NCBI GenBank assembly: GCA_014800815.1
Contig: JAAVFI010000004.1
Location: 10,719-46,611 of the forward strand
DNA length: 35,893 bases
Direction of reading: 5' to 3'
From: Bacteroidales bacterium
GTDB taxonomy: Bacteria > Bacteroidota > Bacteroidia > Bacteroidales > Muribaculaceae
The notes under the pieces are model-generated. The model had not been told where the DNA came from, made no database searches, and saw only the letters and a program-made list of their open reading frames with translations. The stretch's first letter is position 1. Each line of letters begins with the position of its first letter. Of the stretch, positions 7,105 to 34,346 are shown one piece after another. A program made the translations under genes and the position numbers.

Positions 7105-7125
7105 ATCGTGTTTGATGATTGAGGG

Positions 7126-10695: not shown

Positions 10696-10748
10696 AAGAA
10701 ATGATTGGTTTCCGATAATTGTTTAGGATTAAATTTATGGTGCGCCCG

Positions 10749-10764
10749 GCTCCGGCTGCGGAGC
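10749..10764 (-). other. GC-rich hairpin in the leader between fecR and susC
   Basis: GCTCCG and CGGAGC form a perfect 6-bp stem around a 4-base loop. It stands in the otherwise A+T-rich 156-base gap before susC. It could shape mRNA stability or tune SusC relative to FecR. No T-run follows, so it is not a standard terminator. Function is unknown. Confidence 0.35.
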
Positions 10765-10851
10765 GGTGTTGCGCTGTTCTGTTTAGGTTAATTGTGTATC
10801 AAATAATCTGTTTCTCCGTGGTTTAGATAAGGTTAATAATTGGGGTTATTT

Positions 10852-11790: not shown

Positions 11791-11920
11791 GGGGATTAAG
11801 ATAAGGTGAACAGGCACATTTTTTGTGCCCCTTATCTGTTAAGCGTTTCGCAACGCCTATACCCTATGTAAAGTCAGCACTTTTTTTCAGAAAATTTCAA
11901 ATTTATTTAGATAATAACAC

Positions 11921-12505: not shown

Positions 12506-12542
12506 GGTTTTCGGGTGCTCCGACGAGCAAGGTTTACAATTG

Positions 12543-12573
12543 CAAAAGTAACAACAATCTTTTATTTGCCAAA
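12543..12573 (-). promoter_or_regulatory. Bacteroidetes-type promoter of the ECF sigma gene
   Basis: On the minus strand TTTG (12573-12570) is followed, after exactly 19 bases, by TACTTTTG (12550-12543). This matches the -33/-7 pattern TTTG-N19-TAnnTTTG of the Bacteroidetes primary sigma factor. It lies 38 bases before the sigma start codon and shares the intergenic region with the divergent tgt promoter. Confidence 0.75.
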
Positions 12574-12601
12574 AAAAATCAGATTTTTTTTCGTAATTTT
12601 G
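12565..12601 (+). promoter_or_regulatory. Probable tgt promoter, divergent from the sigma promoter
   Basis: TAATTTTG at 12594-12601 fits the -7 pattern TAnnTTTG and is 20 bases before the tgt ATG. The nearest TTTG (12565-12568) is 25 bases upstream, longer than the usual 19-21, so the -33 part is weak. The two divergent promoters overlap, so they could compete for polymerase. Confidence 0.5.
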
Positions 12602-12620
12602 CGCTCTCCAATCACCTGTT

Positions 12621-13751
12621 ATGAAATTTACTCTACAGCATACATGCCCCGGTTCGCAGGCAAGAGCCGGGCTCATCGAGACTGACCACGGACCTATTCA
12701 GACTCCTATTTTCATGCCCGTCGGCACCGTCGGGTCTGTCAAAGGCGTGCACTTCCACGAGCTGCGCGACGACATCAAGGCTCAGATAATTCTCGGCAAC
12801 ACCTACCACCTCTACCTCCGCCCCGGCATGGATATAATCCGGAAGGCCGGCGGCCTCCACCGCTTCAACGGCTGGGAGAAACCTATCCTCACCGACAGCG
12901 GCGGCTTCCAGGTGTTCTCGCTCAGCTCCAACCGCAAGCTCACCGAGCAGGGCGCCGAATTCCGCAGCCACATCGACGGCTCGAAGCACCTCTTCACACC
13001 CGAAAACGTGGTGGACATACAGCGCATAATCGGCTCCGACATAATGATGGCCCTCGACGAATGCGCTCCCGGCACCTCCGATCGCGCATACACCCGCAAG
13101 AGCCTCGACATGACCAAGCGCTGGCTCGAACGCGGCTGGAAGCACTATAAGGAGACCGAACCCGTCTACGGCCACTACCAATCGTATTTCCCCATAGTCC
13201 AGGGCTGTACGTACCCCGACATGCGCCGCGAGGCCGCCGAGCATGCTGCATCGCTCGGTGCCGACGGCTACGCTATCGGAGGTCTTGCCGTGGGCGAACC
13301 CGCCGAAGTGATGTACGAGATGATAGAAGTGGTCAACGACGTGCTCCCCACCGACCGTCCGCGCTACCTCATGGGCGTAGGCACTCCTATAAATATCCTC
13401 GAAGCCATAGACCGCGGCGTGGATATGATGGACTGCGTGATGCCCACGCGCAACGGCCGCAACGGTATGCTCTTCACCCCCGAAGGCACCATGAACATGC
13501 GCAACCAGAAGTGGGCCGACGACTTCTCGCCACTCTGGCCCGACGGACCCTCGTATGTCGACCGCGTGTATACCAAGGCCTACGTCCGTCACCTTTTCGT
13601 GGCCAACGAGCTGCTTGCCATGCAGATAGCCTCTATCCACAACCTTGCCTTCTACCTCTGGCTCGTAGGCGAAGCCCGCCGACACATCATCGAAGGCGAC
13701 TTCAGCACATGGAAAGCCGAAATGGTGCAGAAACTCTCACGCCGTCTCTGA
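12621..13751 (+). CDS. tgt: Queuine/preQ1 tRNA-ribosyltransferase
   Basis: Exchanges guanine 34 of GUN-anticodon tRNAs for a queuosine precursor. The 376 residues show the TIM-barrel motifs in order: DSGGFQVFS with D92; MALDECAP near 143-150; GGLAVGEP near 220-227; and DCVMPTRNGRNG with D271 at the position of the catalytic nucleophile. The structural zinc site is altered. Most bacterial enzymes have CxCxxC just before the AYxRHL motif; here the aligned residues are G309, S311 and D314, while the histidine (H340, in ASIHN) remains. The substrate-binding parts are intact, so I expect an active enzyme. The next gene starts 22 bases downstream, so tgt and the permease form an operon. Confidence 0.96.
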   Translation: MKFTLQHTCPGSQARAGLIETDHGPIQTPIFMPVGTVGSVKGVHFHELRDDIKAQIILGNTYHLYLRPGMDIIRKAGGLHRFNGWEKPILTDSGGFQVFSLSSNRKLTEQGAEFRSHIDGSKHLFTPENVVDIQRIIGSDIMMALDECAPGTSDRAYTRKSLDMTKRWLERGWKHYKETEPVYGHYQSYFPIVQGCTYPDMRREAAEHAASLGADGYAIGGLAVGEPAEVMYEMIEVVNDVLPTDRPRYLMGVGTPINILEAIDRGVDMMDCVMPTRNGRNGMLFTPEGTMNMRNQKWADDFSPLWPDGPSYVDRVYTKAYVRHLFVANELLAMQIASIHNLAFYLWLVGEARRHIIEGDFSTWKAEMVQKLSRRL

Positions 13752-13773
13752 TTTAAGCCCCCGACCCACGGAA

Positions 13774-14850
13774 GTGTTCAAGATTATCGACCGCTACATA
13801 CTGCGCAAGTTCCTCGGAACGTACGTATTCGCCATAGTCCTGCTGCTGGCGATAGTCGTCATGTTCGACGTCAACGAAAAGTTCGACTCTTTCGTCAAGG
13901 CGCCGCTGCATGCCACAATCTTCGACTACTTCCTCAACTTCCTGCCCTACTTCGCCAACCAGTTCTCGCCGCTCTTCACCTTCATCGCCGTAATATTTTT
14001 CACCTCGAAGCTCGCCGGCAACAGCGAGATTATAGCCATGCTCTCTACCGGCATGAGTTTCAAGAGATTGCTGCGACCATACCTCGTGGGCGCGGCCATT
14101 ATAGCGGCGGCTACATACATACTGAGCGCCTACATAATCCCGCCCGCCAACCGCGAGCGAATCGACTACACCAACACTTACGTCAAGAACAAGCGCGTAG
14201 ACTACGGCTCAAACATCATGCTCATGGTAGCCCCGGGCCAGATAGCCTACATGAGCCGCTACGACAATCTCTCGAAGACAGGCCACCGCTTCTCCCTCGA
14301 GTCCTTCGACAGCGCCAAGGTGCTCACCTCGCGTCTCACCGCCACTTCCATCAAATGGGATACCCTATATCGCTGGACAGTACGCGACTACGTGAAGCGC
14401 GACTTCACCGCCGAGCGCGAGTACATAGAGAGCGGCCGCTCCCTCGACACCACAATAGCTTTCGAGCCGCGCGACTTCCTCATATCCGTCAACGATCACG
14501 AGATGATGACCACCCCCGAACTCCGGGAGTACATCCGGCGCCAGAAACTGCGCGGCGTGGGCAACATCAAATCGTTCGAGGTGGAGAACGAGCGCCGCTA
14601 TGCCATGACGGCAGCAGCATTTATCCTCACCGTCATAGGCATGACACTCTCGGTCAAGAAGCAGAAAGGCGGCATGGGCCTCAACATCGGCATAGGCCTC
14701 GTGCTCAGCTTCAGCTACATCCTGTTCATGACCATTACCCAGACTTTCGCTCTGAGCGGCCTCACCTCGCCCGCCGTAGCCATGTGGATACCCAACGTCA
14801 TCTACTTCTTCATAGCCGTCATTCTCTACCGCCGCGCCTCGCGAGGATAG
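13774..14850 (+). CDS. LptF/LptG-family (YjgP/YjgQ) LPS export permease
   Basis: A 358-residue inner membrane protein of the LptB2FG-type transporter that extracts lipopolysaccharide for transport to the outer membrane. The start is a GTG (13774-13776) giving MFKIIDRYILRKFLGTY, the typical start of this family; no ATG is available before it. Transmembrane segments cluster near residues 13-32, 52-80 and 98-118 and again near 280-355, with a soluble periplasmic beta-rich part between. It follows tgt closely. LptF cannot be separated from LptG on this sequence alone, so no symbol is given. After it, 14851-15014 holds only the ychF promoter. Confidence 0.9.
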   Translation: MFKIIDRYILRKFLGTYVFAIVLLLAIVVMFDVNEKFDSFVKAPLHATIFDYFLNFLPYFANQFSPLFTFIAVIFFTSKLAGNSEIIAMLSTGMSFKRLLRPYLVGAAIIAAATYILSAYIIPPANRERIDYTNTYVKNKRVDYGSNIMLMVAPGQIAYMSRYDNLSKTGHRFSLESFDSAKVLTSRLTATSIKWDTLYRWTVRDYVKRDFTAEREYIESGRSLDTTIAFEPRDFLISVNDHEMMTTPELREYIRRQKLRGVGNIKSFEVENERRYAMTAAAFILTVIGMTLSVKKQKGGMGLNIGIGLVLSFSYILFMTITQTFALSGLTSPAVAMWIPNVIYFFIAVILYRRASRG

Positions 14851-14941
14851 CGCCGCGCGACTTTAACCCTCCTCAAAAACACAAAATGAAGACAAAGGAT
14901 AAAAAGTAGCGGCAAAATTTCATATTTTAACCATTATTTAG

Positions 14942-14949
14942 TAACTTTG
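14942..14949 (+). promoter_or_regulatory. -7 promoter box upstream of ychF
   Basis: TAACTTTG fits TAnnTTTG. No TTTG lies at the expected -33 distance, so only the -7 part is supported. The site is 66 bases before the ychF ATG and is the only promoter-like sequence between the LptF/G gene and ychF. Confidence 0.5.
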
Positions 14950-15014
14950 CGCTCATCAAGCACTCTCCCGAGGGTGTCCATTATTACAATTTCAGATCCA
15001 ACTCACTATAATAT

Positions 15015-16118
15015 ATGGCTTTACAATGCGGAATTGTTGGTTTGCCCAACGTAGGTAAATCTACTCTTTTCAACTGCCTTTCAAATGCTAAGGCTCAATC
15101 TGCCAACTTCCCCTTCTGCACCATCGAACCCAACGTAGGCGTAATCACGGTGCCCGACGACCGGCTCACCAAGCTCGTCGAGATGTGTCAGCCCCGCTCG
15201 GTAGTTCCTGCGACGGTAGAAATCGTCGACATCGCCGGCCTCGTAAAAGGCGCCTCAAAAGGCGAAGGCCTCGGCAACAAATTCCTTGCAAACATCCGCG
15301 AAACCGACGCTATTCTCCACGTGCTCCGCTGCTTCGACGACGACAACATCACGCACGTCGACGGCTCCGTTGACCCCGTGAGAGACAAGGAGATAATCGA
15401 CTTCGAGCTCCAAATCAAAGACCTCGAGACCGTAGACGCACGTCTGGCCAAGACCCAGAAGCAGGCCGCTACCGGCGACAAAACCGCCAAGATGCAGGCC
15501 GCAGTGCTCACGGCCATTAAAGAAGCCCTCGAGAAAGGCCTGCCCGCACGCTCGGTGACTTTCGACACCGTAGACGAGCAGAAGTTTGCCCGCGAGCTTT
15601 TCCTCCTCACCTCCAAGCCCGTACTCTACGTCTGCAACGTCGACGACGAATCGGCGGCCGCAGGCTCCAATAAATACGTCGAAGCCGTCCGCGAAGCTAT
15701 CAAGGACGAAGGCGCCGGCCTCCTCGTGGTGGCAGCGCGCACCGAAAGCGAAATCGCCGAGCTCGACACCTACGAAGAGCGTCAGGAATTCCTCGCCGAG
15801 ATAGGCCTCGAAGAATCCGGTGTAGCCCGCCTCATCCGCGCCGCATACGCCCTCCTCGACCTCCAGACATACTTCACCGCCGGCCCCGACGAGGTGCGCG
15901 CATGGACATTCCGCCGCGGCTCCAAGGCTCCACGCTGCGCAGGTATCATCCACACCGACTTCGAGAAAGGATTTATCCGCGCAGAAGTAATCAAGTACGA
16001 CGACTACGTGACTCTCGGCGGCGAGACTGCCGTACGCGAAGCGGGCAAAATGGCTGTTGAAGGCAAAGAATACGTAGTCTGCGACGGCGATATCATGCAC
16101 TTCCGCTTCAACGTCTGA
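15015..16118 (+). CDS. ychF: Redox-regulated ATPase/GTPase YchF (Obg family)
   Basis: A 367-residue P-loop NTPase of the OLA1/YchF group, which binds ribosomes and prefers ATP. The P-loop is GLPNVGKS at residues 7-14, followed by the switch region with FPFCTIEPNVGV. DIAGLVKGASKGEGLGNKFL is the G3 region with the YchF signature, and a coiled-coil insert lies near 130-190. The C-terminal TGS domain includes LQTYFTAGPDEVRAWTFRRG and ends DIMHFRFNV. Length and end match the family. It is the first gene of a likely three-gene operon with the rhomboid protease (28-base gap) and the EEP-family protein (14-base gap). Confidence 0.97.
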   Translation: MALQCGIVGLPNVGKSTLFNCLSNAKAQSANFPFCTIEPNVGVITVPDDRLTKLVEMCQPRSVVPATVEIVDIAGLVKGASKGEGLGNKFLANIRETDAILHVLRCFDDDNITHVDGSVDPVRDKEIIDFELQIKDLETVDARLAKTQKQAATGDKTAKMQAAVLTAIKEALEKGLPARSVTFDTVDEQKFARELFLLTSKPVLYVCNVDDESAAAGSNKYVEAVREAIKDEGAGLLVVAARTESEIAELDTYEERQEFLAEIGLEESGVARLIRAAYALLDLQTYFTAGPDEVRAWTFRRGSKAPRCAGIIHTDFEKGFIRAEVIKYDDYVTLGGETAVREAGKMAVEGKEYVVCDGDIMHFRFNV

Positions 16119-16146
16119 TCCAACCCTCTAATCCTCTGTCGGCACA

Positions 16147-16893
16147 ATGTTCCGCAACTTCTTCAGCACACTACCGCCCGTTGTCAAGAACCTGCTCATC
16201 ATCAACGTCTTGATATGGCTCGTTATGGGTTTCGTGCCCGTACTCGACCGTGTGTTCAACAATAATCTCGCCCTCTACTACTTCTCCTCGCCTGCGTTCC
16301 GCCCCTACCAGATAATAAGCTACATGTTCCTGCACGGCGGGTTTACCCACCTGCTGTTCAACATGTTCGCACTCGCAATGTTCGGCCGCACTATCGAAAT
16401 GGTCATGGGCTCGCAGCGCTTCCTCTTCTACTACATCACCTGCGGTATATGCGCCGCACTCGTGCAGCTCGGAGTCTTCGCCATATACATCGACCAGATA
16501 CAGGCGCTCCTCCCCGACGATGTATGCCGCCAGGTGGCCGACGAGGGCCTCTCGCTCCTCCGCCGCGGCTACAACTACTCCGACCCCGACTGCGCCCGCC
16601 TCAACGCCTTCATCAATACCCCCATGGTAGGTGCCTCGGGCGCTATCTACGGCGTGCTGCTCGCATTCGGCTTCCTCTTCCCCAACATGCCCGTCTACAT
16701 CTTCTTCGTGCCCTTCCCCATAAAAGCCAAGTGGCTCATTATAGGATACTTCGTGCTCGAACTCGTCTACGGCATCACAGGCTCTGCCGACGGCGTGGCA
16801 CACTTCGCGCACCTCGGCGGCATGATATTCGGATTTATACTCCTGCTCTACTGGCGCAAAAAGGGAGTATTCTCAAATCACTGGTTCTTCTAA
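16147..16893 (+). CDS. Rhomboid-family intramembrane serine protease
   Basis: A 248-residue polytopic membrane protein predicted to cleave transmembrane helices within the bilayer. The catalytic serine is S164 in GASGAIYG and the partner histidine is H222 in AHLGG. HGGFTHLLFNMF (63-74) is the conserved oxyanion/L1 region, and about six hydrophobic segments are visible. A hydrophilic insertion of about 40 residues (about 115-155) lies between helices before the active-site helix. It sits between ychF and an EEP-family gene with short gaps. The natural substrate cannot be inferred. Confidence 0.94.
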   Translation: MFRNFFSTLPPVVKNLLIINVLIWLVMGFVPVLDRVFNNNLALYYFSSPAFRPYQIISYMFLHGGFTHLLFNMFALAMFGRTIEMVMGSQRFLFYYITCGICAALVQLGVFAIYIDQIQALLPDDVCRQVADEGLSLLRRGYNYSDPDCARLNAFINTPMVGASGAIYGVLLAFGFLFPNMPVYIFFVPFPIKAKWLIIGYFVLELVYGITGSADGVAHFAHLGGMIFGFILLLYWRKKGVFSNHWFF

Positions 16894-16907
16894 GCACAAA
16901 TTACTGA

Positions 16908-18041
16908 ATGGCAGTACGCAAGACTCCGAAACCCGACACCAAACCTCGCCGCAGCACCCTGCAGCGCATTCTGCGCGGACTGGCAATAAGTGTCGATGTG
17001 CTGCTCGGAGCCGCCCTCTGCCTCACGGCCTACGCCGGCAACATATCGCCGCTGCAGCATGGCGGCATATGGGGCATATTCCCCCTCTGCTTCCCCTTCT
17101 GCCTCGTTGCGGCAGTGATTATCCTCATCCTCCAGCTCTTTTGGAACCGCATAGGCGCACTCATCATGGCCCTTGCGATGCTCATCTGCGCAGGGCCGAT
17201 ATGGGATTACTGCCCCCTGCACTTCGGCACCCCCTCCGTGCCCGACGACGCCACAAAGTTTACCCTCCTCTCCTACAACGTACACAACTTCCTGCGCCCC
17301 GGAGAGAAAGAATACGACACCTCCGACGACTCTGCCGTAGCATACATCCTCAACACCGACGCCGATATAGTATGCCTGCAGGAAGCATCGTTCCTCGCCT
17401 TAGCCAACTGCCTGCCCGCCAAGTTGGTTTACGACATCCACAACCACTACCCCAACGTGCTCATCAACGACGAGGTGGCTCTGCTATCGCGCTTCCCCGT
17501 TCAGGCCGTTCATCTCGACCCCGCACCCGACATCTTCAAAGGTGCCGATGTAGCCTGCTGGCGTGTGACTCTCCCCTCAGGACGGTTCATCACCGTATTT
17601 AATGTCCACCTCGAGTCCATGCGCATGAAGGACGACGACCGCGAGATGTACCGCAACCTCACGGAATTTCATCGTGAAAGCATTCACGACGTCAAGGAGC
17701 GCATCCTCAGCAAGTTGTCGTTCTCGGCAGTGAACCGCGCACGACAGGTACAACAGCTTCTGCGTTACATCCGGCTATACGGAGGCCCCGATGTAATCAT
17801 CACCGGCGACTTCAACGACGTGCCCGGCTGCTACGCCATCCACGCTCTCGCCGATGCCGGATTCCGCAGCGCATACGCCGACCGGGCTCTCGGCCCCGCC
17901 ATTACCTTCAACCAGAGCAGACTTTACTTCCGCATAGATCACACCCTGTATCGAGGCGAGCTCAAGCCTCTGGCAATATCCCGCGGAAGCACCGGGGCCT
18001 CCGACCACTACCCGCTCGTATCATCCTGGGCCCTTTGGTAA
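16908..18041 (+). CDS. Membrane-anchored endonuclease/exonuclease/phosphatase-family protein
   Basis: A 377-residue protein with three hydrophobic N-terminal segments (about 25-44, 53-77 and 82-97), then an EEP fold whose catalytic part should lie in the periplasm. Active-site motifs: SYNVHN with N124; CLQEAS with metal-binding E159; FNVHLES; TGDFND; and the terminal SDHYPL with D366 and H367. The family covers nucleases, phosphodiesterases and lipid phosphatases, and the sequence does not decide the substrate. It is the third gene of the ychF-rhomboid operon, 14 bases after the rhomboid stop. Confidence 0.92.
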   Translation: MAVRKTPKPDTKPRRSTLQRILRGLAISVDVLLGAALCLTAYAGNISPLQHGGIWGIFPLCFPFCLVAAVIILILQLFWNRIGALIMALAMLICAGPIWDYCPLHFGTPSVPDDATKFTLLSYNVHNFLRPGEKEYDTSDDSAVAYILNTDADIVCLQEASFLALANCLPAKLVYDIHNHYPNVLINDEVALLSRFPVQAVHLDPAPDIFKGADVACWRVTLPSGRFITVFNVHLESMRMKDDDREMYRNLTEFHRESIHDVKERILSKLSFSAVNRARQVQQLLRYIRLYGGPDVIITGDFNDVPGCYAIHALADAGFRSAYADRALGPAITFNQSRLYFRIDHTLYRGELKPLAISRGSTGASDHYPLVSSWALW

Positions 18042-21018: not shown

Positions 21019-21049
21019 TTTGTTATATGGGAAAATTTGCTTACCTTTG
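21019..21049 (+). promoter_or_regulatory. Perfect Bacteroidetes promoter of the Abi_2 locus
   Basis: TTTG (21019-21022), 19 bases, then TACCTTTG (21042-21049): an exact match to TTTG-N19-TAnnTTTG. Transcription should begin near 21054. That is downstream of an in-frame TTG at 21037, which rules that codon out as the start and leaves a leader of about 64 bases before the ATG at 21118. Confidence 0.85.
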
Positions 21050-21053
21050 CGAC

Positions 21054-21109
21054 AATAGTTCCCACCACGCCTCTCAACGATGCGTACCACGGTGGGACTT
21101 CGGTTTTTT
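21054..21109 (+). ncRNA. Candidate leader RNA/attenuator hairpin before the Abi_2 gene
   Basis: Between the promoter and the ATG, 21060-21066 (TCCCACC) pairs with 21091-21097 (GGTGGGA). An inner stem, 21067-21070 with 21082-21085, stacks on it, leaving a loop of 11 bases and a 5-base bulge. Six T follow at 21104-21109, only eight bases before the ORF. This looks like a terminator inside the leader, so the main transcript could be an RNA of about 55 bases with the Abi protein made by read-through. Weak pairing of the loop (21076-21080) with 21100-21105 could form a pseudoknot. Abi_2 genes are known to have associated structured RNAs (the abiF motif); whether this is one is not shown here. Confidence 0.5.
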
Positions 21110-21117
21110 ATATACGT

Positions 21118-22011
21118 ATGTATTACAATAAGCAACCTATAGATTTTGCCAACCAGATTACCCTACTTAAAGGGAGAGGAATGACATTTGCAAATGAGGA
21201 TATTGCTCTTGACGGTCTGTATTCCATAAGCTTTTTTCGACTCGCGAGCTACTGGAGACATTTAGAATCACGAAACACCGGCAAGTTCAAGGAAAACAGC
21301 AAATTTGAGGATATACTTTCATTATATATATTTGATCAGTATCTCCGAAATATAATCTTTGCATCAATTCAAAGCATTGAGGTTGCTTTTCGCACAAGAG
21401 TAAGTCATTACCTCTCAATGAAGCACGGTGCATTCTGGTTCCTCAATCCTGCGCTTTTCAAAGATGAGGAAATCCATAAATCATGCATCGATAAATTAAG
21501 GGAAGAATTATGCAGGTCTCACGAAGACTTCATCAAGGAACATTGTGATAAATATGATGAGCCGGATTGTCCGCCCTCTTGGAAGACTATGGAAGTGGCC
21601 TCATTCGGAACGTTATCTAAGCTCTATAGCAATTTAGCTGATAATGATATTAAGAGAGTAATCTCCCGAAGTTTTCAATTACCCTCTTATACATTTCTGG
21701 AGAATTGGATGAAATGCGCAGCCGTTTTGCGCAACTGCTGTGCTCACCATGCACGACTATGGAACAGGCGTTTTTCTGTAATACCCAAATACCCGGCAAA
21801 TCTGCCAGGGAAGTGGATTTCCTTGCCCCTTCGGAGACCTGAAAAATTATACGGACAGTTGTGTTGTCTTGCATACCTGGAACAATCAATAAATCCCAAT
21901 AGTAAATTAAAAGACAACTTCCTTGTACTATTGTCCGAGCATCCGGAGATTGATACTAAAGCAATGGGGCTTCAAGAGAATTGGCTGGAGCAACCTTTGT
22001 GGAATAGATAA
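21118..22011 (+). CDS. Abi_2 (AbiD/AbiF-like) abortive infection protein
   Basis: A 297-residue HEPN-superfamily protein of the Abi_2 group, whose members abort phage infection, probably as RNases. The N-terminal part has KQPIDFANQITLLKGRGM, a typical Abi_2 opening, then YSISFFRLASYWRHLE and SIEVAFRTRVSHYLS. The putative catalytic HEPN motif is R205-x4-H210 in LRNCCAHHARLWNR, intact. The start is the ATG at 21118 because the promoter covers earlier in-frame codons. Codon use and base composition are A+T-richer than the flanking genes, which suggests horizontal transfer. It is monocistronic, behind a hairpin leader. I see no protein antitoxin partner. Confidence 0.88.
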   Translation: MYYNKQPIDFANQITLLKGRGMTFANEDIALDGLYSISFFRLASYWRHLESRNTGKFKENSKFEDILSLYIFDQYLRNIIFASIQSIEVAFRTRVSHYLSMKHGAFWFLNPALFKDEEIHKSCIDKLREELCRSHEDFIKEHCDKYDEPDCPPSWKTMEVASFGTLSKLYSNLADNDIKRVISRSFQLPSYTFLENWMKCAAVLRNCCAHHARLWNRRFSVIPKYPANLPGKWISLPLRRPEKLYGQLCCLAYLEQSINPNSKLKDNFLVLLSEHPEIDTKAMGLQENWLEQPLWNR

Positions 22012-22767: not shown

Positions 22768-25700
22768 TTATTTCACCACTATCATGCTACCTGCGCTATG
22801 CGCGGTGAGTTCGGGCGCATACTGGCTCTGCAGAGTTGCTATGCCGGATACGAAGGTGCCGACGGATGCGGCAGTCATATCGTAGGTAACCATGTAGGTA
22901 CCCTTGGGCAACCATGATACAAAGAGGCGGGTCGAGGCATCGGAATTCTCGCGGTAGAAGGCGAGGGCGCCGTCGTAGACGTAGCCGGGGAGCTGGTCGA
23001 CAGGTTCGAACGAGGCGGGACGCTCGTCGTCGATGCTAACGTACTCGAGATTGCGGTTGGCCTTTATGGTGAGCTGTACGCGTACTCGCTCGCCAAGCGC
23101 AAATTCATCGGTCTGCACCCACTTGCCGTCGCGTTCTACGAGGCATCGCTTATCTATGGAGAGGTCGCGGCCGGGGCGTGCCTTGACACTCTTGGCGGGC
23201 GACTTGCTTACGCTCACCACCGAGCCGTAGGAGGGTGTCACACCATTGGGTTTCACACTTATGCGGAGGGTCTTGCCGTCGGAGGGAAGTGTGCGGGCGA
23301 AGTAGCCCGTCATGCTTTCTACCCGGCCGGGATTGAAAGGCTTGCCATTGACAGTGACGGCTTCGGCGACGGGTACAGAAGTCCAGTCGGAACCCGTAAG
23401 CATCACGGCGGCTATCACATAGTCGGGATTCCATGCGCCGAGGTTGTCGAGCGCCTGAGCCTGCACTATCACCCACTGACGCAGAGCGTCGAGCTCGGCG
23501 GCGCTCGCTCCCATTGCAGCATATGCCTGAATGATAGTGGCGTAGGAGCGGATGTCACTTACATTGGGGAAGCATACGCCCTGACCGGGCTTGGCGACGC
23601 CAAACTGTCGGATTGAGGCGAGCACGGCCTCTGCCTCTACCTTGCGGCCATTGGCTTTAAGGATGAGGACGTCGTAGGCCTTGTCGCCGGTATGGTCTTT
23701 CTTCCAGTTGCGGGCAACCTCGGCCACGGTATTGCGGATTATGGCGCTTCCGCCTACTGTCTGCTTGAGCTCGGGGAAGAACGACGCTATCAGGGCAAGC
23801 TCGTGGTCGGTCTTCACTCCTTTCATAGCGGAAAGTGTGGACTGGAGGTAGGCGAAGGCCTTGGAGAGAGCGGTGTTGAACGACTCGTCGAGCATGCCGA
23901 GCGAGCGGGCAATACCCAAGGTCATAAGCACACTTTCAGTGCTCCAGAGCGAAGACTCCGAAGCCCAGCCGCCCCACTTGAAGCCACCGTCGGGCATCTG
24001 CATCTTGGCGAGAGCTTCGGTGAGATCGCCTATCGCTTTTGCGTTTGCCTCGGGGTCGAGCAGCGAGGTGAGCATCTCCATGCGCTGAGTCTGCGAAGCG
24101 GCAGCCTGCACCCATGGAGTGCTGTCGAGCATCAGTTGCTTGAGATTTTCATTCTTCGACAGCATCGACACCAGGGCGTCCTCCGACGGATTTTCTTTCC
24201 ATACCCGGAGAGCTTGGGCGATATCGGGATTGGTAGATACGAGGTGACGGGCGGCGAGAGCCGAGAAGAGGCGTGAAACGAGGCCTGTCGAGGTGAGCGA
24301 CTCTCCGACAGATATTCCACGCATGGCCTTGACGATAGTCCACACGGGATTCTGGCAGTAGCTTAGGGTAAGAGTTGCATCGGCAGAGGCATCTACCGTG
24401 AATTCAAAAGGCTTGGTATCGCCGGGATTGAGGTAGAATTCGGTGCTCTCAATCACGGTAGCGGCAGATGTAAGAACGGGTATGGCTGCCTGCTCGCCGT
24501 CGGCAAAACCTCCGGCCATGCTGCGCACTCTATATCCTATTGCCGAAGCATCGGTAGGCGCAACTACGTCGATGCCGACTACCGCCGACGCCTTTGATGC
24601 AAGGGTATCGGTCTGCTGAACGGTGGCAATCACGGCTCCGCTCTCGATGTCGAAAATCTCGGCAACGGTGGTAACGGCAAGGCTGTCGTCCGAATTATTG
24701 AAGACGGTAGCGGCTACGCGGGCCTCGTCGCCCTGGCGGAGGAAGCGCGGCAGATTGGCCTGCACCATTACAGGCTTGGAGGCGACGGCCTCGGCGGCAA
24801 AGGATGCCGACTCCAGCGCTTTGGTCCAGCCGAATGTACGGAGCTGCCAGGTGGTATTGGCATTGGGCACTGTAAAGACTACATCCACATTGCCCTCGGC
24901 ATCAGTCACAAGCGAGGGTCGCCAGAATGCGAGCGCAACCTCGGTATCGCGGTATTCGGGAACATCAGCTGTGCCAGCATCGGCAGCGCCCTCAGCTGTA
25001 AGAGCAACTACTTCAGCCATTGGCGCCGCAAGGTCCATTTCATATTCCTCTACCATATCATTTTCTACACTCGCGCTTTCGGCTTTAGCCATCTTGAAGC
25101 TTGCATAGCGCCTCATCATCACACCGGCGGAATTATAGTCGCCGTAGTAGCGGAATGACGGCAGCACGAGCTCGATGCCCTCTACACTCTTGAACGGCAG
25201 CGCGTAATAGTCGCTGAACGGGTAGACGTTGAGTCCGCTTATATCCATTCGATGTATAAAGCGGTAGAAGTTGAACGACGTGGGCATGTCGTTGTGGAGC
25301 AATGCATCCAGAGCCTTGTCGTAGAGTGTTGCAATCATTCCGGCGTCGGCAAGCGCGTTGTCGCCCTTGGAAAGGCGGAATCGCCAGGTCTCAAGGCCGC
25401 CGGGCACCAGCTTGTCGCGGAAGGTCTCGGCCACGATATCTACTTTCTCCTCTTTTGGCAGTTCGATCGAAACTTCACTCTGATACATATTGCCGTCGAG
25501 GACTGACACGAGTACTATCTGGCCGTCTTCGGCATCGAAGCCGTCGGGCAGCTCGATATTCAGGGTGGTGAAACCGCTCTTAATCCTGTGATTCTTAACG
25601 GGTGCCAGGGTCTTTCCATTTCTCACGAATGAGAATATGTAAAGCTCTCCGGCGGTCGTTCCGGCTGTAACGCTGACTTTCCGTCCGGCAAGTTTCACCT

Positions 25701-28224
25701 TAGCATCGGGGACAAATAGTATGGGAAGCGAGGCCGAAATCGTGCCTTTGCGGAGGCTGTAGAACGCCATATCGGCACTCACAAAATCATCGGCAAGAGC
25801 ACTGTCGGCAGGCTGCAGGCGCAGCTTGTAGTCGCTCGCGGGGAGTGCTGCCACGTCTATGGCGAGACTCTTCCCGGCCTCGGCAGTTCCTGAGAGGACT
25901 ACACTCGAATCGGCGGCAGCAATCACCTCCCAGCGCAGAGCTATCGGGGTGGAAACGCCGTCGCTGTTCAGAGCTTCGGGGCGTATGTTCAGAGTTTTGT
26001 CGCTATTCACAGCCGAGGGCACGGCCGCACTGAGCACGTAGGGTTTGCCGGTGGTAAATCTACGCGAAGTTGAAGCCGTCTCGGCAGTCTTGGAAGTCAC
26101 TGTGATATCGGCTACGAAATCGGTAAACTTCACATTTTCAATGCCGCTGTCGAAAGTCTCAGCAGGAATCACTACGGTAAATCCGCCTGAGGCATCGGTC
26201 TTTACATTAAAATCGGCGAGGTGTGTATCGGGCGCAAACCAGCGTTGGCGGTAGCCGCCCTTAAGCGATAAAAGCACATCGGCGTCTGCCACGGGCATTC
26301 CCGAGTATGTACGGGCACGCCCCTCGACAGTCACGCATCCGGGCGAGGGGATGTCGCGGCGGACGGATGTCACTTCGGCCTCGAAGACGGGAGCCTTGTA
26401 GTCCGACACCATTACATCTTTCGATGTGGATATGCCGTCACCGTCAATGACGATTGAGTAATATCCTGTGAGTCGGCCCTTTGGAGCTACGAATTTACCG
26501 CTTATACGGCCAAGCTCATCCGACTCAACGGTAACGCTGTCGACTTCTTCGTCATTTGCATCAAGCCAAGTCACATCGAAGCGTCGGCGGGCGAGGACTT
26601 CGGGATTTTTGCCGTCGTCGCGTCGCTGAGCGGCTACCACGGCCCAGCACACGGTGTCGCCGGGATGATAGAGCGGACGGTCGGTGAAGACGAGGAGCGA
26701 ATTCTGAACGGAGCTGCCGCGCTCGTCGTCCATTCCGTTGACCCACAGGCTCGAGAGGAAGTCGTAGTTGAGTCCTTTATAATCAATCACGAGTCGGTCG
26801 TTACGCCAACGCTTTGAGAGCGGAGCATCGAACTGTACGAGGCCCTGACGGTCGGTTTTCCCGACGAATATGTTCTTCGCATTTTTCTCGCCGGAGTTCA
26901 GGCTGAACGAGACGCCGGCAAGAGGTGCTCCCGTTGTGAAGTCAACGGCTCCCGCCACAGCCTTCGAGCATCCGTTAACTACGAACGGGAAGAGCGGCGT
27001 AACCTCAACAGTCTGGCAATAGCTGTTGTCGGTGGTACCGTCGATAGTGATTACCATTGCATAGCGTCCGGGGGCATCGAACTTGAAGGGAAATTCGGTA
27101 GTTCCGCGCACAGAGTCCGTTTTCAGGCTGCCGAAAGCGACTTCTCTGTACTGCTTGGCAATCTTCTGACCCGATGATACCGAAACGCCTGCGGGGATTT
27201 TATAAGCTCCTACACGGATTTCGCGGGCATATCTCCACTTGGCCGCAATGCTGAAAGACTCTCCGGGGGCAACCACCGATGTGGCCTCAATGGTCACGGT
27301 AGGCTGGGAGAGTAGGTTCAGTTTATTTTTAAGCTCGCCGTTGCCGTACCAATCAGGGAACTTCTTCAGTGAAGCCGTGAGCATGTCTATCACTTCGGCA
27401 CTCTCCTCCGCCTCCGAAGAAATGTTGATTTCAGATAGTACGTAGCGCGCGGCCTTGACCGTTTCAAAGCGTTTGTAGAGCTTTATAAGGGTGTCGGGAT
27501 TGCTGTCGCGGCGCACCGACCAATAGAAATACGGTGCTGACGCCTCGGCCGATGCCGCTACGGCTTCGTCGAGTACGGCCTTTAATTTCACGTCGTAGTC
27601 GTTGCCGGGGCGACGGAAATAATTGTAGGCATCGGCTTTCTTTAGCCGGATAAACGAGGCTACGTCAGGGATATACAGAAGCGCCTCGGGCGAATATTCA
27701 ACGGCGGCCTCGAAACGGCTGAGCGAAGTATTGCCGGCGAGACTCTGAGCGCTGTCGAGGAGCTCGATGATGCGGGTGCGGAATTGTTGACCGCTCCATG
27801 TGGCAATATCGGCGGGATAGGGCTCGAGAGGGGCATCGACATTGTCGTAGACATATCGTCTCCGGGAATAAATTTTGTAGAAAACTTCCGCTTCAAGAGC
27901 AAGCAGCATGGCTTTTGAAGCATCGTCGAGACCGGCCTGTTTCAGCTGATTCTCGATGAGGGCAGGTTGAGAAAAGATTGTATCGTTGTCGATATTCCGC
28001 TGCGCCGTGAGGAGTTCTACGAGCGCACGCAGACGCACGGGGCCGCTGTCGGGCGTTTTGTCGGCGGCTGCGAGGACTTTCCCGGCATCCTCTATCACCT
28101 GACGAGGATAAGCGAAATCGGGAACTTTGAACTCGGGCTTGTCGGCTCCGAAGCATTTAAAACTTATAGACATAAGAAAAAGTAGGATAACGGCAACAAT
28201 GTGGTGGGAGTGTTGAATCTTCAT
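22768..28224 (-). CDS. Bacterial alpha-2-macroglobulin-family protein without the thioester motif
   Basis: 1818 residues with a signal peptide (1-26), predicted to be periplasmic or surface exposed. A helical N-terminal part (about 35-300) is followed by macroglobulin domains; VFTDRPLYHPGDTV near residue 500 is the MG2 signature. FWRPSLVTDAEGNVDVVF with TTWQLRTFGWTKAL (about 1095-1125) is the A2M core motif, followed by a helical thioester-type domain (about 1290-1560). At the position of the usual CxEQ thioester the sequence reads GISVGESLTST, so no covalent trap can form. Bacterial members are thought to inhibit proteases at the envelope; here any trapping would be non-covalent. It follows fumarase on the same strand but after a terminator hairpin. 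No partner PBP1c gene is present in this window. Confidence 0.9.
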   Translation of the reverse strand: MKIQHSHHIVAVILLFLMSISFKCFGADKPEFKVPDFAYPRQVIEDAGKVLAAADKTPDSGPVRLRALVELLTAQRNIDNDTIFSQPALIENQLKQAGLDDASKAMLLALEAEVFYKIYSRRRYVYDNVDAPLEPYPADIATWSGQQFRTRIIELLDSAQSLAGNTSLSRFEAAVEYSPEALLYIPDVASFIRLKKADAYNYFRRPGNDYDVKLKAVLDEAVAASAEASAPYFYWSVRRDSNPDTLIKLYKRFETVKAARYVLSEINISSEAEESAEVIDMLTASLKKFPDWYGNGELKNKLNLLSQPTVTIEATSVVAPGESFSIAAKWRYAREIRVGAYKIPAGVSVSSGQKIAKQYREVAFGSLKTDSVRGTTEFPFKFDAPGRYAMVITIDGTTDNSYCQTVEVTPLFPFVVNGCSKAVAGAVDFTTGAPLAGVSFSLNSGEKNAKNIFVGKTDRQGLVQFDAPLSKRWRNDRLVIDYKGLNYDFLSSLWVNGMDDERGSSVQNSLLVFTDRPLYHPGDTVCWAVVAAQRRDDGKNPEVLARRRFDVTWLDANDEEVDSVTVESDELGRISGKFVAPKGRLTGYYSIVIDGDGISTSKDVMVSDYKAPVFEAEVTSVRRDIPSPGCVTVEGRARTYSGMPVADADVLLSLKGGYRQRWFAPDTHLADFNVKTDASGGFTVVIPAETFDSGIENVKFTDFVADITVTSKTAETASTSRRFTTGKPYVLSAAVPSAVNSDKTLNIRPEALNSDGVSTPIALRWEVIAAADSSVVLSGTAEAGKSLAIDVAALPASDYKLRLQPADSALADDFVSADMAFYSLRKGTISASLPILFVPDAKVKLAGRKVSVTAGTTAGELYIFSFVRNGKTLAPVKNHRIKSGFTTLNIELPDGFDAEDGQIVLVSVLDGNMYQSEVSIELPKEEKVDIVAETFRDKLVPGGLETWRFRLSKGDNALADAGMIATLYDKALDALLHNDMPTSFNFYRFIHRMDISGLNVYPFSDYYALPFKSVEGIELVLPSFRYYGDYNSAGVMMRRYASFKMAKAESASVENDMVEEYEMDLAAPMAEVVALTAEGAADAGTADVPEYRDTEVALAFWRPSLVTDAEGNVDVVFTVPNANTTWQLRTFGWTKALESASFAAEAVASKPVMVQANLPRFLRQGDEARVAATVFNNSDDSLAVTTVAEIFDIESGAVIATVQQTDTLASKASAVVGIDVVAPTDASAIGYRVRSMAGGFADGEQAAIPVLTSAATVIESTEFYLNPGDTKPFEFTVDASADATLTLSYCQNPVWTIVKAMRGISVGESLTSTGLVSRLFSALAARHLVSTNPDIAQALRVWKENPSEDALVSMLSKNENLKQLMLDSTPWVQAAASQTQRMEMLTSLLDPEANAKAIGDLTEALAKMQMPDGGFKWGGWASESSLWSTESVLMTLGIARSLGMLDESFNTALSKAFAYLQSTLSAMKGVKTDHELALIASFFPELKQTVGGSAIIRNTVAEVARNWKKDHTGDKAYDVLILKANGRKVEAEAVLASIRQFGVAKPGQGVCFPNVSDIRSYATIIQAYAAMGASAAELDALRQWVIVQAQALDNLGAWNPDYVIAAVMLTGSDWTSVPVAEAVTVNGKPFNPGRVESMTGYFARTLPSDGKTLRISVKPNGVTPSYGSVVSVSKSPAKSVKARPGRDLSIDKRCLVERDGKWVQTDEFALGERVRVQLTIKANRNLEYVSIDDERPASFEPVDQLPGYVYDGALAFYRENSDASTRLFVSWLPKGTYMVTYDMTAASVGTFVSGIATLQSQYAPELTAHSAGSMIVVK

Positions 28225-30099: not shown

Positions 30100-32649
30100 T
30101 TATGATAATGCACGTATTTTACGTCCGCCTCCTATAACTTTTACTTTGTCATCAAACCCGGAATTGACCAGAGACATCTCATATAATATTCGAGATGTCT
30201 GGCGAATGACTTTTATGTCAGCCACATAGAAAAAGCCATATCCTGAACGATATGAATAGTTATCGTTGTGATTTACGAAATCTACTTCTCTTATAGTTGA
30301 AACATCTGTTCTATGATTGCAGAATAGATTATACTCTGAAAGAGTCTTTTCTATCAGTGCCATAGATTCCGGTCTGGCAGGGATATTTGATTCGTCGATC
30401 TTTTTTTTGAAAAGTTCTGTTATCTCATCAATATTAATATCTTCGGTTTCATGGCAGCTATCAAGCAAGTTGGTTAGAATCAGTTTAATATGTATAACTT
30501 CAGTACCATACCATACTTGTGTGGCAATTATCAAGAAACAAAATACGATTAGTTCTTTGTGAAATTCCACACATTTATGCCATGAATAATCGTTGGTTTT
30601 GAGATATCCTTTTCGGGCGAGAATCAGAAATTTACCCATATTCCTGATGAAGTCGTGCGGAATACTTCCGTGTTGCTTCTCAAAGTTTGTTTCCAATTCT
30701 CTCCACATCAAAACTATATTTATCAGAATTCGGGAGTAATCTCTGACATCCACATGGCAAGCTGCATTTGCATAATCCGGTTTGAATATATCCGCGCCAA
30801 ATTTATATGCCTTTGAGTATAAGTCGGACAAACGAGTATCATAATGATCTCTTAATCGTCTGCTATATCTGTCGATACATTCAATAAACTGAATATCACG
30901 ACTACGCTTGTCGGAGATGCTCTCGTTGTAGTTGTATTCATTGCTTCCCTCATCAATATCTGTCAGGGAGTCTGTATCGTCTGATATTTCGGCCTCATTA
31001 GCATCTCTCTGCTTCTTATCAGAAGACAACAGGAAATCGACAATACGTACATCAGGTAATGCCAGGACAGACTTGCGAGAACCAATATGAATGTTATCGA
31101 ATTCTTCGCTTGACACTGATTTTGCCGGGACATCTACTTTTATCATATCTCGAGCCCCTTTTGTATCGGATAATTTGACCTCCGTATTATTATCGCACCA
31201 TAAGTATGATAGAATTCCGTCAAGATTGTCTTTCCAGTCTATGTTCGAGTCAAGAAGCGAATCAAGCTTTCGATATGTTTTGTTAGGATTAAACCTCGCT
31301 ACGTCATCTTCGCTTATAATGAAGATACGATTTGATATTTCATTGCTATCGGAATCTATGACTACTGCACTACAGCCGGTCAATGTAAAATCTTCAACAA
31401 CTATTTTGCAGCTGGCGTCAGGCATTTCAAATATTTGTAATTCCTCGCCGTTAGAATCAAGGATAGATAACCGGCTATTCTGTAAACATTCGTTATTCAG
31501 GAGTACCGTAAGGGTATCATCAATAACTTCCGCTGAAGTTATCTGCACGCTTTTGGCGATATAATCCGAAGATATTCTCTCAGGTCTCGTAAGTATCTGA
31601 AGTTTTGTCGGACTAATCTGAGATTTTTGATTTATGGTTATGCCTAAATTCCGAACATAGTCTTCCGGATTTGCAGAAATTATTGCGATGCAAGCTTCAT
31701 CTCCGGCACCACTGAAAGCCGCATTAGTTACATTGGCACTCCCGGACAATATAATTGTACGAGATAATAATGTAAATTGTATAATCTTTGCATGAAGTTT
31801 ATGTACATTAGACCTTTTTGATGAAAACACATCATCCCATGAATAAAGATTCAACCATTGCGGCTTCTCCTTCATCAAGTCATAGGGATAAATGCCATAT
31901 TCAGAGTATACGCAATTTACCTGATCCGGATTAAAAATACGCTTAAGAGTTCTGAGAGTTTGCCCTGATGTATCGTAAAAAGGAGAAATGGTTGTTATAG
32001 ATATTATTCTTTCATCACCTATAATTTCCCGGAGCTTGGTGTGTATATTCCCTTCCGAATCATTTGAAATAAATCGGATCTGCTCATCATTTATAATAAC
32101 TTTATCTGAAGTGTTCAGATGCTCTTCGGTCATCCAGTTAGTATTATCCCTCATCCAGCGCAGCTGTTGCTTCAACAATATAGAATCGGGAAGATCTAAA
32201 TTATTCAGATATTTCCATACCGTTTTAAACAGCGGAAGATAAACACTATCGTTACCTTTCAGACTAAAGGTATTCCAGACTTCCTCATTCAGAGCTTGGC
32301 CATTATATGTAAGATTGCCGGAGCCGACAACGAGCATTCCGGCATTTTCACCAAAGAACATCGATATCTTGGGATGAAATACACCGGTGTTTGTCGGGAT
32401 TTGCCTTACCAAAGTATAATGTCTATGGGCAGAGTCAATGCCAAACGTGGGATATCTTAAAATAATTTGATCATAGTTTGATGCGTCCAGCAACACTACA
32501 ATATTACTAACTCCACATTGTCTCAGTTTCGGAAGATAGAACGACTCGAAAAATATCGGGTCGAAAGTATAACTTGTCAAGATTGCTGAATGATATACGT
32601 TCTGCCGTTTACCAATCAAATCAAATATATTATATCGCACTAATTCCAT
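30100..32649 (-). CDS. Large protein with two phospholipase-D-type (HxK/GSxN) motifs, putative nuclease
   Basis: 849 residues with no signal peptide. Two PLD-superfamily half-sites are visible: H92-x-K94 with G109-S110-x-N112 (FHPKISMFFG to GSGNLT), and H286-x-K288 with G303-S304-x-N306 (LHAKIIQF to GSANVT). The pair would form one active site, as in PLD-fold nucleases such as BfiI-type enzymes. The remaining 530 residues are of unknown function: a beta-rich stretch near 370-450, then an acidic linker (about 555-590), then a long helical C-terminal part. The gene overlaps the end of its partner by 20 bases, so the two are translationally coupled. Both are clearly A+T-richer than neighbouring genes. 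I infer a nuclease acting on nucleic acid, probably in phage defence; lipid hydrolysis is less likely given the missing signal peptide. Confidence 0.75.
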   Translation of the reverse strand: MELVRYNIFDLIGKRQNVYHSAILTSYTFDPIFFESFYLPKLRQCGVSNIVVLLDASNYDQIILRYPTFGIDSAHRHYTLVRQIPTNTGVFHPKISMFFGENAGMLVVGSGNLTYNGQALNEEVWNTFSLKGNDSVYLPLFKTVWKYLNNLDLPDSILLKQQLRWMRDNTNWMTEEHLNTSDKVIINDEQIRFISNDSEGNIHTKLREIIGDERIISITTISPFYDTSGQTLRTLKRIFNPDQVNCVYSEYGIYPYDLMKEKPQWLNLYSWDDVFSSKRSNVHKLHAKIIQFTLLSRTIILSGSANVTNAAFSGAGDEACIAIISANPEDYVRNLGITINQKSQISPTKLQILTRPERISSDYIAKSVQITSAEVIDDTLTVLLNNECLQNSRLSILDSNGEELQIFEMPDASCKIVVEDFTLTGCSAVVIDSDSNEISNRIFIISEDDVARFNPNKTYRKLDSLLDSNIDWKDNLDGILSYLWCDNNTEVKLSDTKGARDMIKVDVPAKSVSSEEFDNIHIGSRKSVLALPDVRIVDFLLSSDKKQRDANEAEISDDTDSLTDIDEGSNEYNYNESISDKRSRDIQFIECIDRYSRRLRDHYDTRLSDLYSKAYKFGADIFKPDYANAACHVDVRDYSRILINIVLMWRELETNFEKQHGSIPHDFIRNMGKFLILARKGYLKTNDYSWHKCVEFHKELIVFCFLIIATQVWYGTEVIHIKLILTNLLDSCHETEDINIDEITELFKKKIDESNIPARPESMALIEKTLSEYNLFCNHRTDVSTIREVDFVNHNDNYSYRSGYGFFYVADIKVIRQTSRILYEMSLVNSGFDDKVKVIGGGRKIRALS

Positions 32650-34153
32650 TGCTCAATTCGCTTAGGAGTTTAAGACCCGATTCCGTCAAAACATCAATGC
32701 CGTCCTTCGGCTGTATGATACTCAAATCAATGAGGAAATTCCGCATGGTATCAATTCGAGGCGATGTATCCGTGGCATCCCAATTGTCAATAAACCGCAG
32801 ACATCCATTCTCAAAAACGAACTTCTGAGTTGCCTTTTGTGTCTGCAACATTTTGCGGAAAGATACCCTATAATGTCGATAGATAATATTGACAATGAGT
32901 CGTTTTATATAGGCAAAAACTTTTGATTCTAAATTTGACTTGACGTCATTCATATAGTTACAAAAATTCTCGGCTATGATACATTGTCTCTGATAATATA
33001 TCTCCGACTTCTCGCAGTTGGATATGTTGTCGCGATAAAACGACAACAGGTTTCTTATAGCTTCTGCTACAGGATATCTTCTCTGTTTGTCATCAAGTGA
33101 TTGAATTAATTCCTTGATTGTAACCTCCGGACTTATCTGAAAATCCGATAAAACATTATTTGCAATTTCATCTGATATCTTATCAACTGCAATCCATTGT
33201 TTATCATCATTCTCCAACACACTAAGGATCTCGTGGAAAATTTGTGTATACTGATACTGCCAATTATTATCAAGATAATAAGCATACCACCCCCATGCAG
33301 TAATATCATCGCTATCATGGTAGTTATCATACATATAACGCGCAAAATCGCCACCCCTCAGCTGACACTTGGATTTAGAGACAAACTCGAGTATGAACTT
33401 TATTGTTTGCCGTCGATGTAGGGAGTAGTCGGATGAGAGAGGATTGTCCGGCTGCAAAAGCATGTGCAGAAGATTATCCCTCTCATTATTAAGCGGCATC
33501 AATTTCATGCAAAATGCCTGGTTCAAAGATACTAATTCGATATCAGTAGCATAACCTCTTTGCAGAATACTTAAAAATAAGTATCCTGCATCTCCAACCG
33601 ATTCCGCAAAATCGTTGGCCAACATCAAGCCATTTACATACCCCTCGGTTTTGGTAATATTATATATAGATGCATACTTTTTATTTTGTGCGACCAAATT
33701 CAGTTCTTCAAGCGATGCAATATAGTACTGTCGAAGCACACCACCCGGATTAGCCCAATATGTACTTTTTCCCGGTCCAATATCAGCTCCTTCCTCCAAA
33801 GAGAAAATTTTAGTACTTTTATTACACTGTGCTGTAGCAAAATTTATCCCCGGGATACCGGCATGATCGTCAAGGGTTGCATTTATAAGAGCGACTAATA
33901 ATTCTGCCCTTCTGATAAATGGAAAGAAATCTTTGTCAATAATTGCCTGCTTTCCCTCATAGAACTGCTTGATAACCCAGCAGTAGAAACTATAATAACG
34001 TATTCTTATAGATACGTTGTTCAGTCCCGGCAACATCGTTGTAAAAAGTTGCTCCGCAACGTTTCGAATTCCAAGTTGATTCAGTCCCGGAGTCAATGAT
34101 GGTTCTTCGCCCCAATAAGGTGCGATATGCCGATTAGTATTAGATATCACCAT
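32630..34153 (-). CDS. Unrecognised protein, first gene of the PLD two-gene operon
   Basis: 507 residues from the ATG at 34153-34151 (a TTG four codons earlier is possible). I do not recognise a family. It is mainly helical, cytoplasmic, and has no Walker motif or nuclease signature I can see. The best-looking block is N-terminal: APYWGEEPSLTPGLNQLG, then NVAEQLFTTMLPGLNN and RIRYYSFYCWVIKQFYEG. The last 50 residues (MRNFLIDLSIIQPKDG to LTESGLKLLSELSNG) could be a winged-helix-like fold, suggesting DNA binding, which is speculative. It precedes and overlaps the PLD-type gene, so the products probably act together. A palindrome covers its -7 box, so the operon may be repressed by a regulator or by itself. 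Confidence 0.75.
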   Translation of the reverse strand: MVISNTNRHIAPYWGEEPSLTPGLNQLGIRNVAEQLFTTMLPGLNNVSIRIRYYSFYCWVIKQFYEGKQAIIDKDFFPFIRRAELLVALINATLDDHAGIPGINFATAQCNKSTKIFSLEEGADIGPGKSTYWANPGGVLRQYYIASLEELNLVAQNKKYASIYNITKTEGYVNGLMLANDFAESVGDAGYLFLSILQRGYATDIELVSLNQAFCMKLMPLNNERDNLLHMLLQPDNPLSSDYSLHRRQTIKFILEFVSKSKCQLRGGDFARYMYDNYHDSDDITAWGWYAYYLDNNWQYQYTQIFHEILSVLENDDKQWIAVDKISDEIANNVLSDFQISPEVTIKELIQSLDDKQRRYPVAEAIRNLLSFYRDNISNCEKSEIYYQRQCIIAENFCNYMNDVKSNLESKVFAYIKRLIVNIIYRHYRVSFRKMLQTQKATQKFVFENGCLRFIDNWDATDTSPRIDTMRNFLIDLSIIQPKDGIDVLTESGLKLLSELSNGISAI

Positions 34154-34240: not shown

Positions 34241-34282
34241 GTATACTTTGCAAATATACAGAATATTTGCTATCCCTACAAG
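34241..34282 (-). promoter_or_regulatory. Promoter and palindromic operator-like site of the PLD operon
   Basis: On the minus strand CTTG (34282-34279), 20 bases, then TATATTTG (34258-34251) form a Bacteroidetes promoter. The -7 box lies inside a 19-base near-palindrome (34241-34259, GTATACTTTGCAAATATAC), symmetric about TTTGCAAA apart from one mismatched pair. A dimeric repressor could bind there and block initiation. The leader to the ATG is about 90 bases, with no other clear structure. Confidence 0.55.
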
Positions 34283-34304: not shown

Positions 34305-34346
34305 AAGAGGCGTACTCACCCGCAGATCCGGGTGAGTACGCCTCTT
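34305..34346 (-). terminator. Long perfect hairpin after the sigma/anti-sigma operon
   Basis: Positions 34305-34322 pair with 34329-34346 in a perfect 18-bp stem around a 6-base loop. It begins about 29 bases after the stop of the last gene of the second sigma operon. No T-run follows on the minus strand, so it may be a processing or stability element and not a classic terminator. It shields the PLD operon promoter from upstream transcription. Confidence 0.55.

Follow-up and report, generated by a model that had tools for sequence, protein, structure and literature searches.

The gene pair

The window analysed here, a stretch of 35,893 nucleotides from contig JAAVFI010000004.1 of a Muribaculaceae genome (order Bacteroidales), contains two overlapping genes, called A and B in the following, which lie on the reverse strand in an A+T-rich island. 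In an earlier note they had been taken for a coupled, apparently acquired pair and a candidate for an undescribed module against phages or plasmids, formed by an unrecognised protein and a candidate nuclease of the phospholipase D (PLD) type. The comparisons described below relate both proteins to the Azaca system. The pair is probably a helicase-less sister lineage of its ZacA-ZacB half, acting as a mobile module of two genes against phages or plasmids.

The features of the locus are reported in Table 1, where the overlap of 20 bases, already noticed in the earlier note, is confirmed. For gene A an alternative start is available, a TTG located upstream at 34165, which would give a protein of 511 amino acids (aa).

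Table 1. Features of the A-B pair and of its upstream region (positions in the window; strand '.' where none applies)
Feature	Position	Strand	Description and basis
Gene A	32630..34153	-	Open reading frame (ORF), 507 aa; ATG at 34153, stop ends at 32630; ZacA-like N-terminal region, possible C-terminal winged helix
Gene B	30100..32649	-	ORF, 849 aa; ATG at 32649, stop ends at 30100; ZacB-like candidate PLD nuclease with double half-site
A/B overlap	32630..32649	-	20 bases, from ORFs
A residues 20-108	33830..34096	-	Part aligning with ZacA/DUF6361; profile-profile comparison with nine true ZacA, probability 85.7, E 5.4e-6
A residues 472-502	32648..32740	-	Weak winged-helix match, HTH_45; E 0.0095 in the window protein, below Pfam cut-off
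B residues 15-334	31648..32607	-	Part aligning with ZacB; profile-profile comparison with ten true ZacB, probability 98.8, E 1.3e-16
B first half-site	32314..32376	-	H92-P-K94...G109-S110-x-N112; sequence, conservation
B second half-site	31732..31794	-	H286-A-K288...G303-S304-x-N306; sequence, conservation
B residues 335-849	30103..31647	-	No trusted family or solved-structure match
Promoter-like site	34251..34282	-	CTTG-N20-TATATTTG; motif search, Bacteroidetes consensus
Inverted repeat	34305..34346	.	Perfect, 18 bp; fold z -7.9; possible terminator of upstream operon

Homology of the two proteins to ZacB and ZacA

Protein B is clearly a distant homologue of ZacB, as judged from profile comparisons. 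The window protein matches the PADLOC ZacB profile with an E-value of 1.5e-8 and passes the Pfam cut-off for PLDc_2; the ZacB profile is matched at E <= 0.01 by all 48 B sequences compared (the window protein and 47 relatives, thinned at 80% identity). The two intact HxK/GSxN half-sites, for which the earlier note had proposed a PLD-type nuclease, are indeed present and nearly invariant in this set: in the first, H92 is kept in 47 sequences, K94 in 48, S110 in 43 (T in 5) and N112 in 48, while in the second H286, S304 and N306 are kept in all 48 and K288 in 47. When solved structures were searched with the B profile, the best match was tyrosyl-DNA phosphodiesterase, an enzyme with both half-sites in one chain (E 0.0011, over 36 positions located at the second half-site); a match to Mediator subunit 7 (E 0.036) was taken as chance. 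One B found at another locus (L058:11600-14137) features HxK at neither of the usual places and only one elsewhere, and is possibly an inactive variant.

Protein A, in turn, is apparently a remote homologue of ZacA, and for the window protein the link rests on its family. Of 54 A sequences (thinned at 80% identity), 36 match the PADLOC ZacA profile at E <= 0.01 (best 6.9e-7), so that the protein is no longer to be regarded as unrecognised. The ZacA alignment used in Table 1 was built from nine of ten Azaca loci, L101, where zacA is broken, being the one omitted. ZacA corresponds to the Pfam family DUF6361 (PF19888), matched by six of the 54 A at E up to 0.1 (best 0.0022). At the other end of the protein, nine of the 54 match HTH_45 with E-values of up to 0.1, the best being 4.1e-6; the two true ZacA that were scanned matched DUF6361 and, at E up to 0.1, not the winged helix. 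No curated family cut-off is reached by the A of the window. In solved structures the A profile found a designed protein alone (E 0.16), and searches with the single proteins, A or B, returned nothing credible.

A and B as a unit

Related loci were collected by a genome scan keyed to one conserved peptide, from which the best 80 of 154 relatives, from 190 stretches, were retained, and by a viral scan, which added four relatives from IMG/VR contigs. The resulting 84 loci include 80 with a complete A and 71 with a complete adjacent B of more than 700 aa; after thinning at 80% identity, 53 A remained, 47 of them with such a B, and these 47 loci were used for the analysis of neighbourhoods and of ZacC.

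The two genes are consistently found together. In 80 of the 84 loci an ORF of at least 100 aa lies on the same strand within 100 bp of the end of A; three of the others are at a contig edge, and L069 is the exception. When the following plus-strand ORF is considered (81 loci), it overlaps A in 67, is located at 0-20 bp in 13 and further away in one; in L013, L045 and L051 this ORF is only 353, 206 and 122 aa long, and further open frame comes after it. Among 395 genomes sampled from the phylum, A is present in six and B in nine, and full-length B is found in the same six genomes, beside A. Two of the other three feature only short PLD-like matches. The third, G062, has one short PLD-like match and, in L250:7671-12116, the C-terminal half of B alone; nothing of A was seen over the 19 kb read. 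The neighbours of this half gene, named from sequence motifs, are presumably a transposase-like gene and an ATPase-TOPRIM-like gene. The pairwise distances of A and B are strongly correlated (48 pairs, r 0.949; none of 999 permutations as high), shared ancestry being a contributor to this correlation. Coupling of the two genes, as originally proposed, is thus well borne out.

Relation to Azaca

For comparison, ten Azaca loci were opened, namely eight from plasmids (out of 37 records matching ZacA) and two from the phylum (L096, L097). All ten share with the A-B pair the order zacA-zacB. In all eight plasmid loci a DUF6361 gene is followed by one for a PLD protein (labelled hypothetical in L100) and then by a gene of helicase type; in L101 zacA is fragmented. 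A ZacA search in 296 genomes of the phylum gave three matches, the Azaca loci L096 and L097 and, as the weakest (1.3e-4), the A-B pair of G164. Both kinds of locus can also be located between hsdS and hsdR (Azaca in L099, pairs in L001 and L019).

Several differences stand against these likenesses. Most A are 500-540 aa long, compared with 388-422 aa for ZacA, and A does not match DUF6361 at E 0.001; complete B of more than 700 aa (71 sequences) measure 791-939 aa, compared with 486-662 aa for ZacB. Above all, the pairs were found without ZacC: four queries gave no match in any of the 47 loci (flanks of up to 8 kb to either side of the pair, as far as contigs extend) or in the window, while recovering five out of five held-out Azaca loci. 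The whole genome carrying the window gave no match either, by a search positive in 6 of 14 control genomes. Since ZacC, a defining feature, was looked for and not found, the pair is not assigned to Azaca; it may still work like Azaca, which a 2026 review (PMC12926258) continues to count among the systems of unknown mechanism.

When 64 PLD regions are placed in a tree, a branch of length 2.66 with 100/100 support splits the ten ZacB from the 54 B of the pairs; the root of this tree is unknown and several of its rows have an unusual composition. Because the pairs lie apart on a long branch and keep both half-sites intact, the possibility that they are recently decayed Azaca systems was ruled out.

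Two observations concern the Azaca loci themselves. On a Haliscomenobacter plasmid (L099:3513-15245), hsdS and hsdR flank a true Azaca operon, and in four of the eight plasmid regions (L103, L104, L105, L106) genes for a PD-(D/E)XK nuclease and a UvrD helicase directly precede zacA, possibly as parts of a larger system.

Distribution, base composition and mobility

The pair is rare and patchy: besides the six genomes out of 395 mentioned above, A is found in one of 37 genomes of the genus, which is the one carrying the window, and in one of 24 other genomes of the order. Widespread core genes, the outcome which the earlier note had named as contrary to its proposal, are not what was found. Empedobacter (L032), Halpernia (L033), Pedobacter antarcticus (L034) and Sphingobacterium (L056, L066), from genera of two orders, share segments of 12.9-14.7 kb which carry the pair and are 96.9-98.3% identical. 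These identities indicate that the pair has moved horizontally between bacterial orders. Plasmids are among its carriers, as A matches 12 of 72,556 plasmid records and B 19, and in all six plasmid regions opened A and B are adjacent. An origin as phage genes was rejected, neither protein being matched in 50,697 phage records; four relatives come from IMG/VR contigs.

The composition of the island agrees with the claim that it is richer in A+T than its surroundings, with 38% GC against 52% in a genome sample of about 330 kb. Per kilobase, its GC content is 0.373-0.388, compared with 0.520-0.538 in the two kilobases before it. The overall value, 0.381, lies 3.1 standard deviations (s.d.) under the genome mean of 0.521 (s.d. 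0.045), calculated from 276 overlapping 4-kb segments in 329,762 bp out of the same 2.77-Mb genome; 2.2% of these segments are as low. At third codon positions, GC amounts to 39% for A and 36% for B, compared with 62% in the fumarase gene which comes after B and 65% in the long gene at 22768-28224. The eight lowest segments listed all belong to one other A+T-rich stretch of this genome (L227, on contig C5, from about 6000 to 17000; 36-39% GC in 4-kb segments), possibly a further acquired island.

Among 36 same-genus genomes, fumarase was found in 34 and A in none. In the relatives compared, no DNA similarity was found past the fumarase start and no clean insertion joint was seen; for the three proteins upstream of the pair, a weak sigma-factor match was the only one obtained, and the sigma-factor search returned mainly paralogues.

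Both the inverted repeat, after which no clear T-run is present, and the promoter-like site lie between the pair and small upstream genes, with the site downstream of the repeat. The site agrees with the Bacteroidetes promoter consensus; its motif has one match in the window, with 0.11 expected, and at least one in 11 of 100 shuffles. Transcription of the pair from a promoter of its own, as suggested earlier, is plausible. Elsewhere in the window, three TTTG-N19..21-TAnnTTTG sites (0.14 expected), at 12543-12573 (-), 21019-21049 (+) and 21304-21334 (+), are candidate promoters of Bacteroidetes type.

Neighbouring genes

Type I restriction genes are frequent near related pairs. Searched by phmmer with annotated Hsd proteins, they occur within 8 kb in 16 of the 47 loci and in 3 of 36 random 20-kb regions (Fisher p 0.005), the latter being a small and unmatched control, taken from 16 genomes of the phylum sample; the flanks add up to 552,716 bases for the pair loci and 720,000 for the control. 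Among 230 neighbours, type I methylase, specificity and R subunits lead the PADLOC and Pfam tallies (first 25 families listed). In 11 of the 47 loci, the pair and the type I genes form one same-strand run. The orders seen include hsdS-A-B-hsdR (L019 and the Myroides plasmid L001), hsdR-A-B (L015-L018, L085) and A-B-hsdM-hsdS (L086). Of the six plasmid regions, three (L001, L003, L004) contain type I restriction genes, one a Zorya gene (L006) and one an AbiEii-type gene (L005), with nothing obvious in L002.

Other motors are also found near the pair, as seen from nine chosen large neighbours, two of which (L009, L082) turned out to be unrelated to helicases. A DEAD-box protein (L046) or an EcoEI-type R subunit (L079) follows B, a type III Res protein precedes A (L090), and SF1-type helicases are located within a few genes (L010, L021).

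In the window, the nearest defence-like gene is one of the Abi_2 family at 21037-22011 (+), about 8 kb from the pair (E 1.0e-54). This second gene is also A+T-rich (GC of its kilobase 0.41), and its product shares 48.7% identity with an 'Abi family protein' encoded on a Bacteroides fragilis plasmid.

Proposed function and alternatives

The role presumed for the pair is defensive, and its mechanism may be outlined as follows. A and B would form one complex, in which A, through its apparent winged-helix end, would recognise a feature of foreign DNA and otherwise keep B silent, as sensor and silencer. B, the blade, would fold its two half-sites into a single metal-independent PLD active site and cut DNA via a covalent histidine intermediate. 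PLD endonucleases are described as metal-independent and are believed to use a covalent intermediate (PMC11037411), and the PLD domains of DruE in Druantia III serve cutting (PMC13192584). In Azaca, a dedicated helicase would be added to this core. The pair would need no DNA motor, or would borrow one; this would account for the HsdR, type III Res protein or other helicase found next to several copies. The trigger could be a modified base, recognised by the winged helix as in fusions of PLD and winged-helix domains, or the failure of a restriction enzyme, as for PrrC. A wider proposal, which appears possible and still doubtful, is that A and B form a portable, autonomous sensor-nuclease core, of which Azaca is one product with a dedicated helicase, and which elsewhere couples to the motor available (HsdR, type III Res, SF1 or DEAD-box) and serves restriction enzymes as a guard or an added nuclease.

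A number of results weigh against a defensive sister lineage of ZacA-ZacB. The A of the window reaches E 0.033 with the ZacA profile in its longer-start form and has no match at 0.01 in the 507-aa form, and compared with one single ZacA sequence A gives a probability of just 2.5%. No type I restriction-modification gene is present within 8 kb in 31 of the 47 loci, and with HsdS and HsdR alone the difference from the small control becomes weaker (13 out of 47 vs 3 out of 36, p 0.024). The window copy lies outside any restriction island, with no type I operon; the association with defence genes, which the earlier note had proposed to count, is seen at some of the related loci and not beside the copy from which it started. 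Finally DrmC, the PLD protein of DISARM, is dispensable in that system (PMC9142583).

Among the alternatives, a restriction activity of type IV kind, dependent on modification, appears unlikely; here the winged helix of A would read, for example, N6-methyladenine and B would cut nearby, as a two-protein version of the PLD-winged-helix fusion endonucleases (Aba4572I, CbaI). These are PLD nucleases with a winged helix, less toxic in Dam- cells and sometimes located near type I methyltransferases (17 cases; PMC11037411), and the weak winged-helix matches in nine of the 54 A, beside a PLD protein, would fit. In the window protein, however, this match is below cut-off; the published fusions are single chains, and two of them feature other catalytic patterns, HxDx(4)K and HxEx(4)K (PMC11037411).

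Decidedly unlikely is that the pair serves as a guard or add-on of restriction enzymes, held inactive by the restriction complex and freed when a phage blocks it, as PrrC guards EcoprrI. A type I restriction operon houses the effector gene prrC (PMC3874165), a position echoed by the 11 same-strand runs and by pairs located next to hsdR or between hsdS and hsdR. PrrC is, however, an unrelated anticodon nuclease, similar in position only; the other 36 loci and the window copy are outside such runs, the position relative to the hsd genes varies, and the sole HSDR_N match of the genome carrying the window is on a different contig.

A role outside defence, such as Tdp1-like repair or processing of DNA ends, or lipid chemistry, is highly unlikely: the B profile touches tyrosyl-DNA phosphodiesterase and PLD-fold proteins are diverse, but the pair is rare, patchy and mobile, and restriction genes are near it more often than near random regions. 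Very improbable is a toxin-antitoxin or addiction module kept for the stability of mobile elements, with B as toxic nuclease and A as inhibitor and repressor, since the overlap of the genes, the possible DNA-binding end of A and the plasmid or mobile locations are set against the large size of both proteins and nearest homologues which are defence proteins with a helicase partner.

Two other systems have a profile which is matched by B. One DrmC profile is matched by 36 of the 48 B at E up to 0.01; the B of the window reaches the NCBIfam DrmC family only at E 0.12, far below cut-off. DISARM was rejected, in agreement with the earlier note, as no DUF1998/MZB protein (DrmB-type) was matched in the genome carrying the window by a search positive in 8 of 14 control genomes. 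The PADLOC candidate PDC-M27 is similar in that PDC-M27B is matched by 36 of the 48 B at E up to 0.01, and differs in that PDC-M27A is matched by none of the 54 A at the same threshold; the system was found in none of eight genomes searched, where controls gave no match either. Identity with PDC-M27 is unsupported, the genome search being one without a positive control.

Significance

Neither DUF6361 nor PDC-M27 was found mentioned in the open-access literature searched, and no description of a stand-alone A-B pair was found there; one may exist outside it. Azaca is not mentioned in PMC12458937, a paper searched for PLD domains. The pair is not a wholly undescribed kind, because A is apparently a remote homologue of ZacA and B a homologue of ZacB, which would make the pair a helicase-less variant of the named Azaca system. 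Detection tools requiring ZacC would miss such pairs. Their repeated location in type I restriction operons offers a testable link, of PrrC-like position, between a putative, so far unstudied nuclease pair and restriction enzymes. As a natural version without the helicase, the pair would isolate the ZacA-ZacB core, so that the role of each part becomes addressable.

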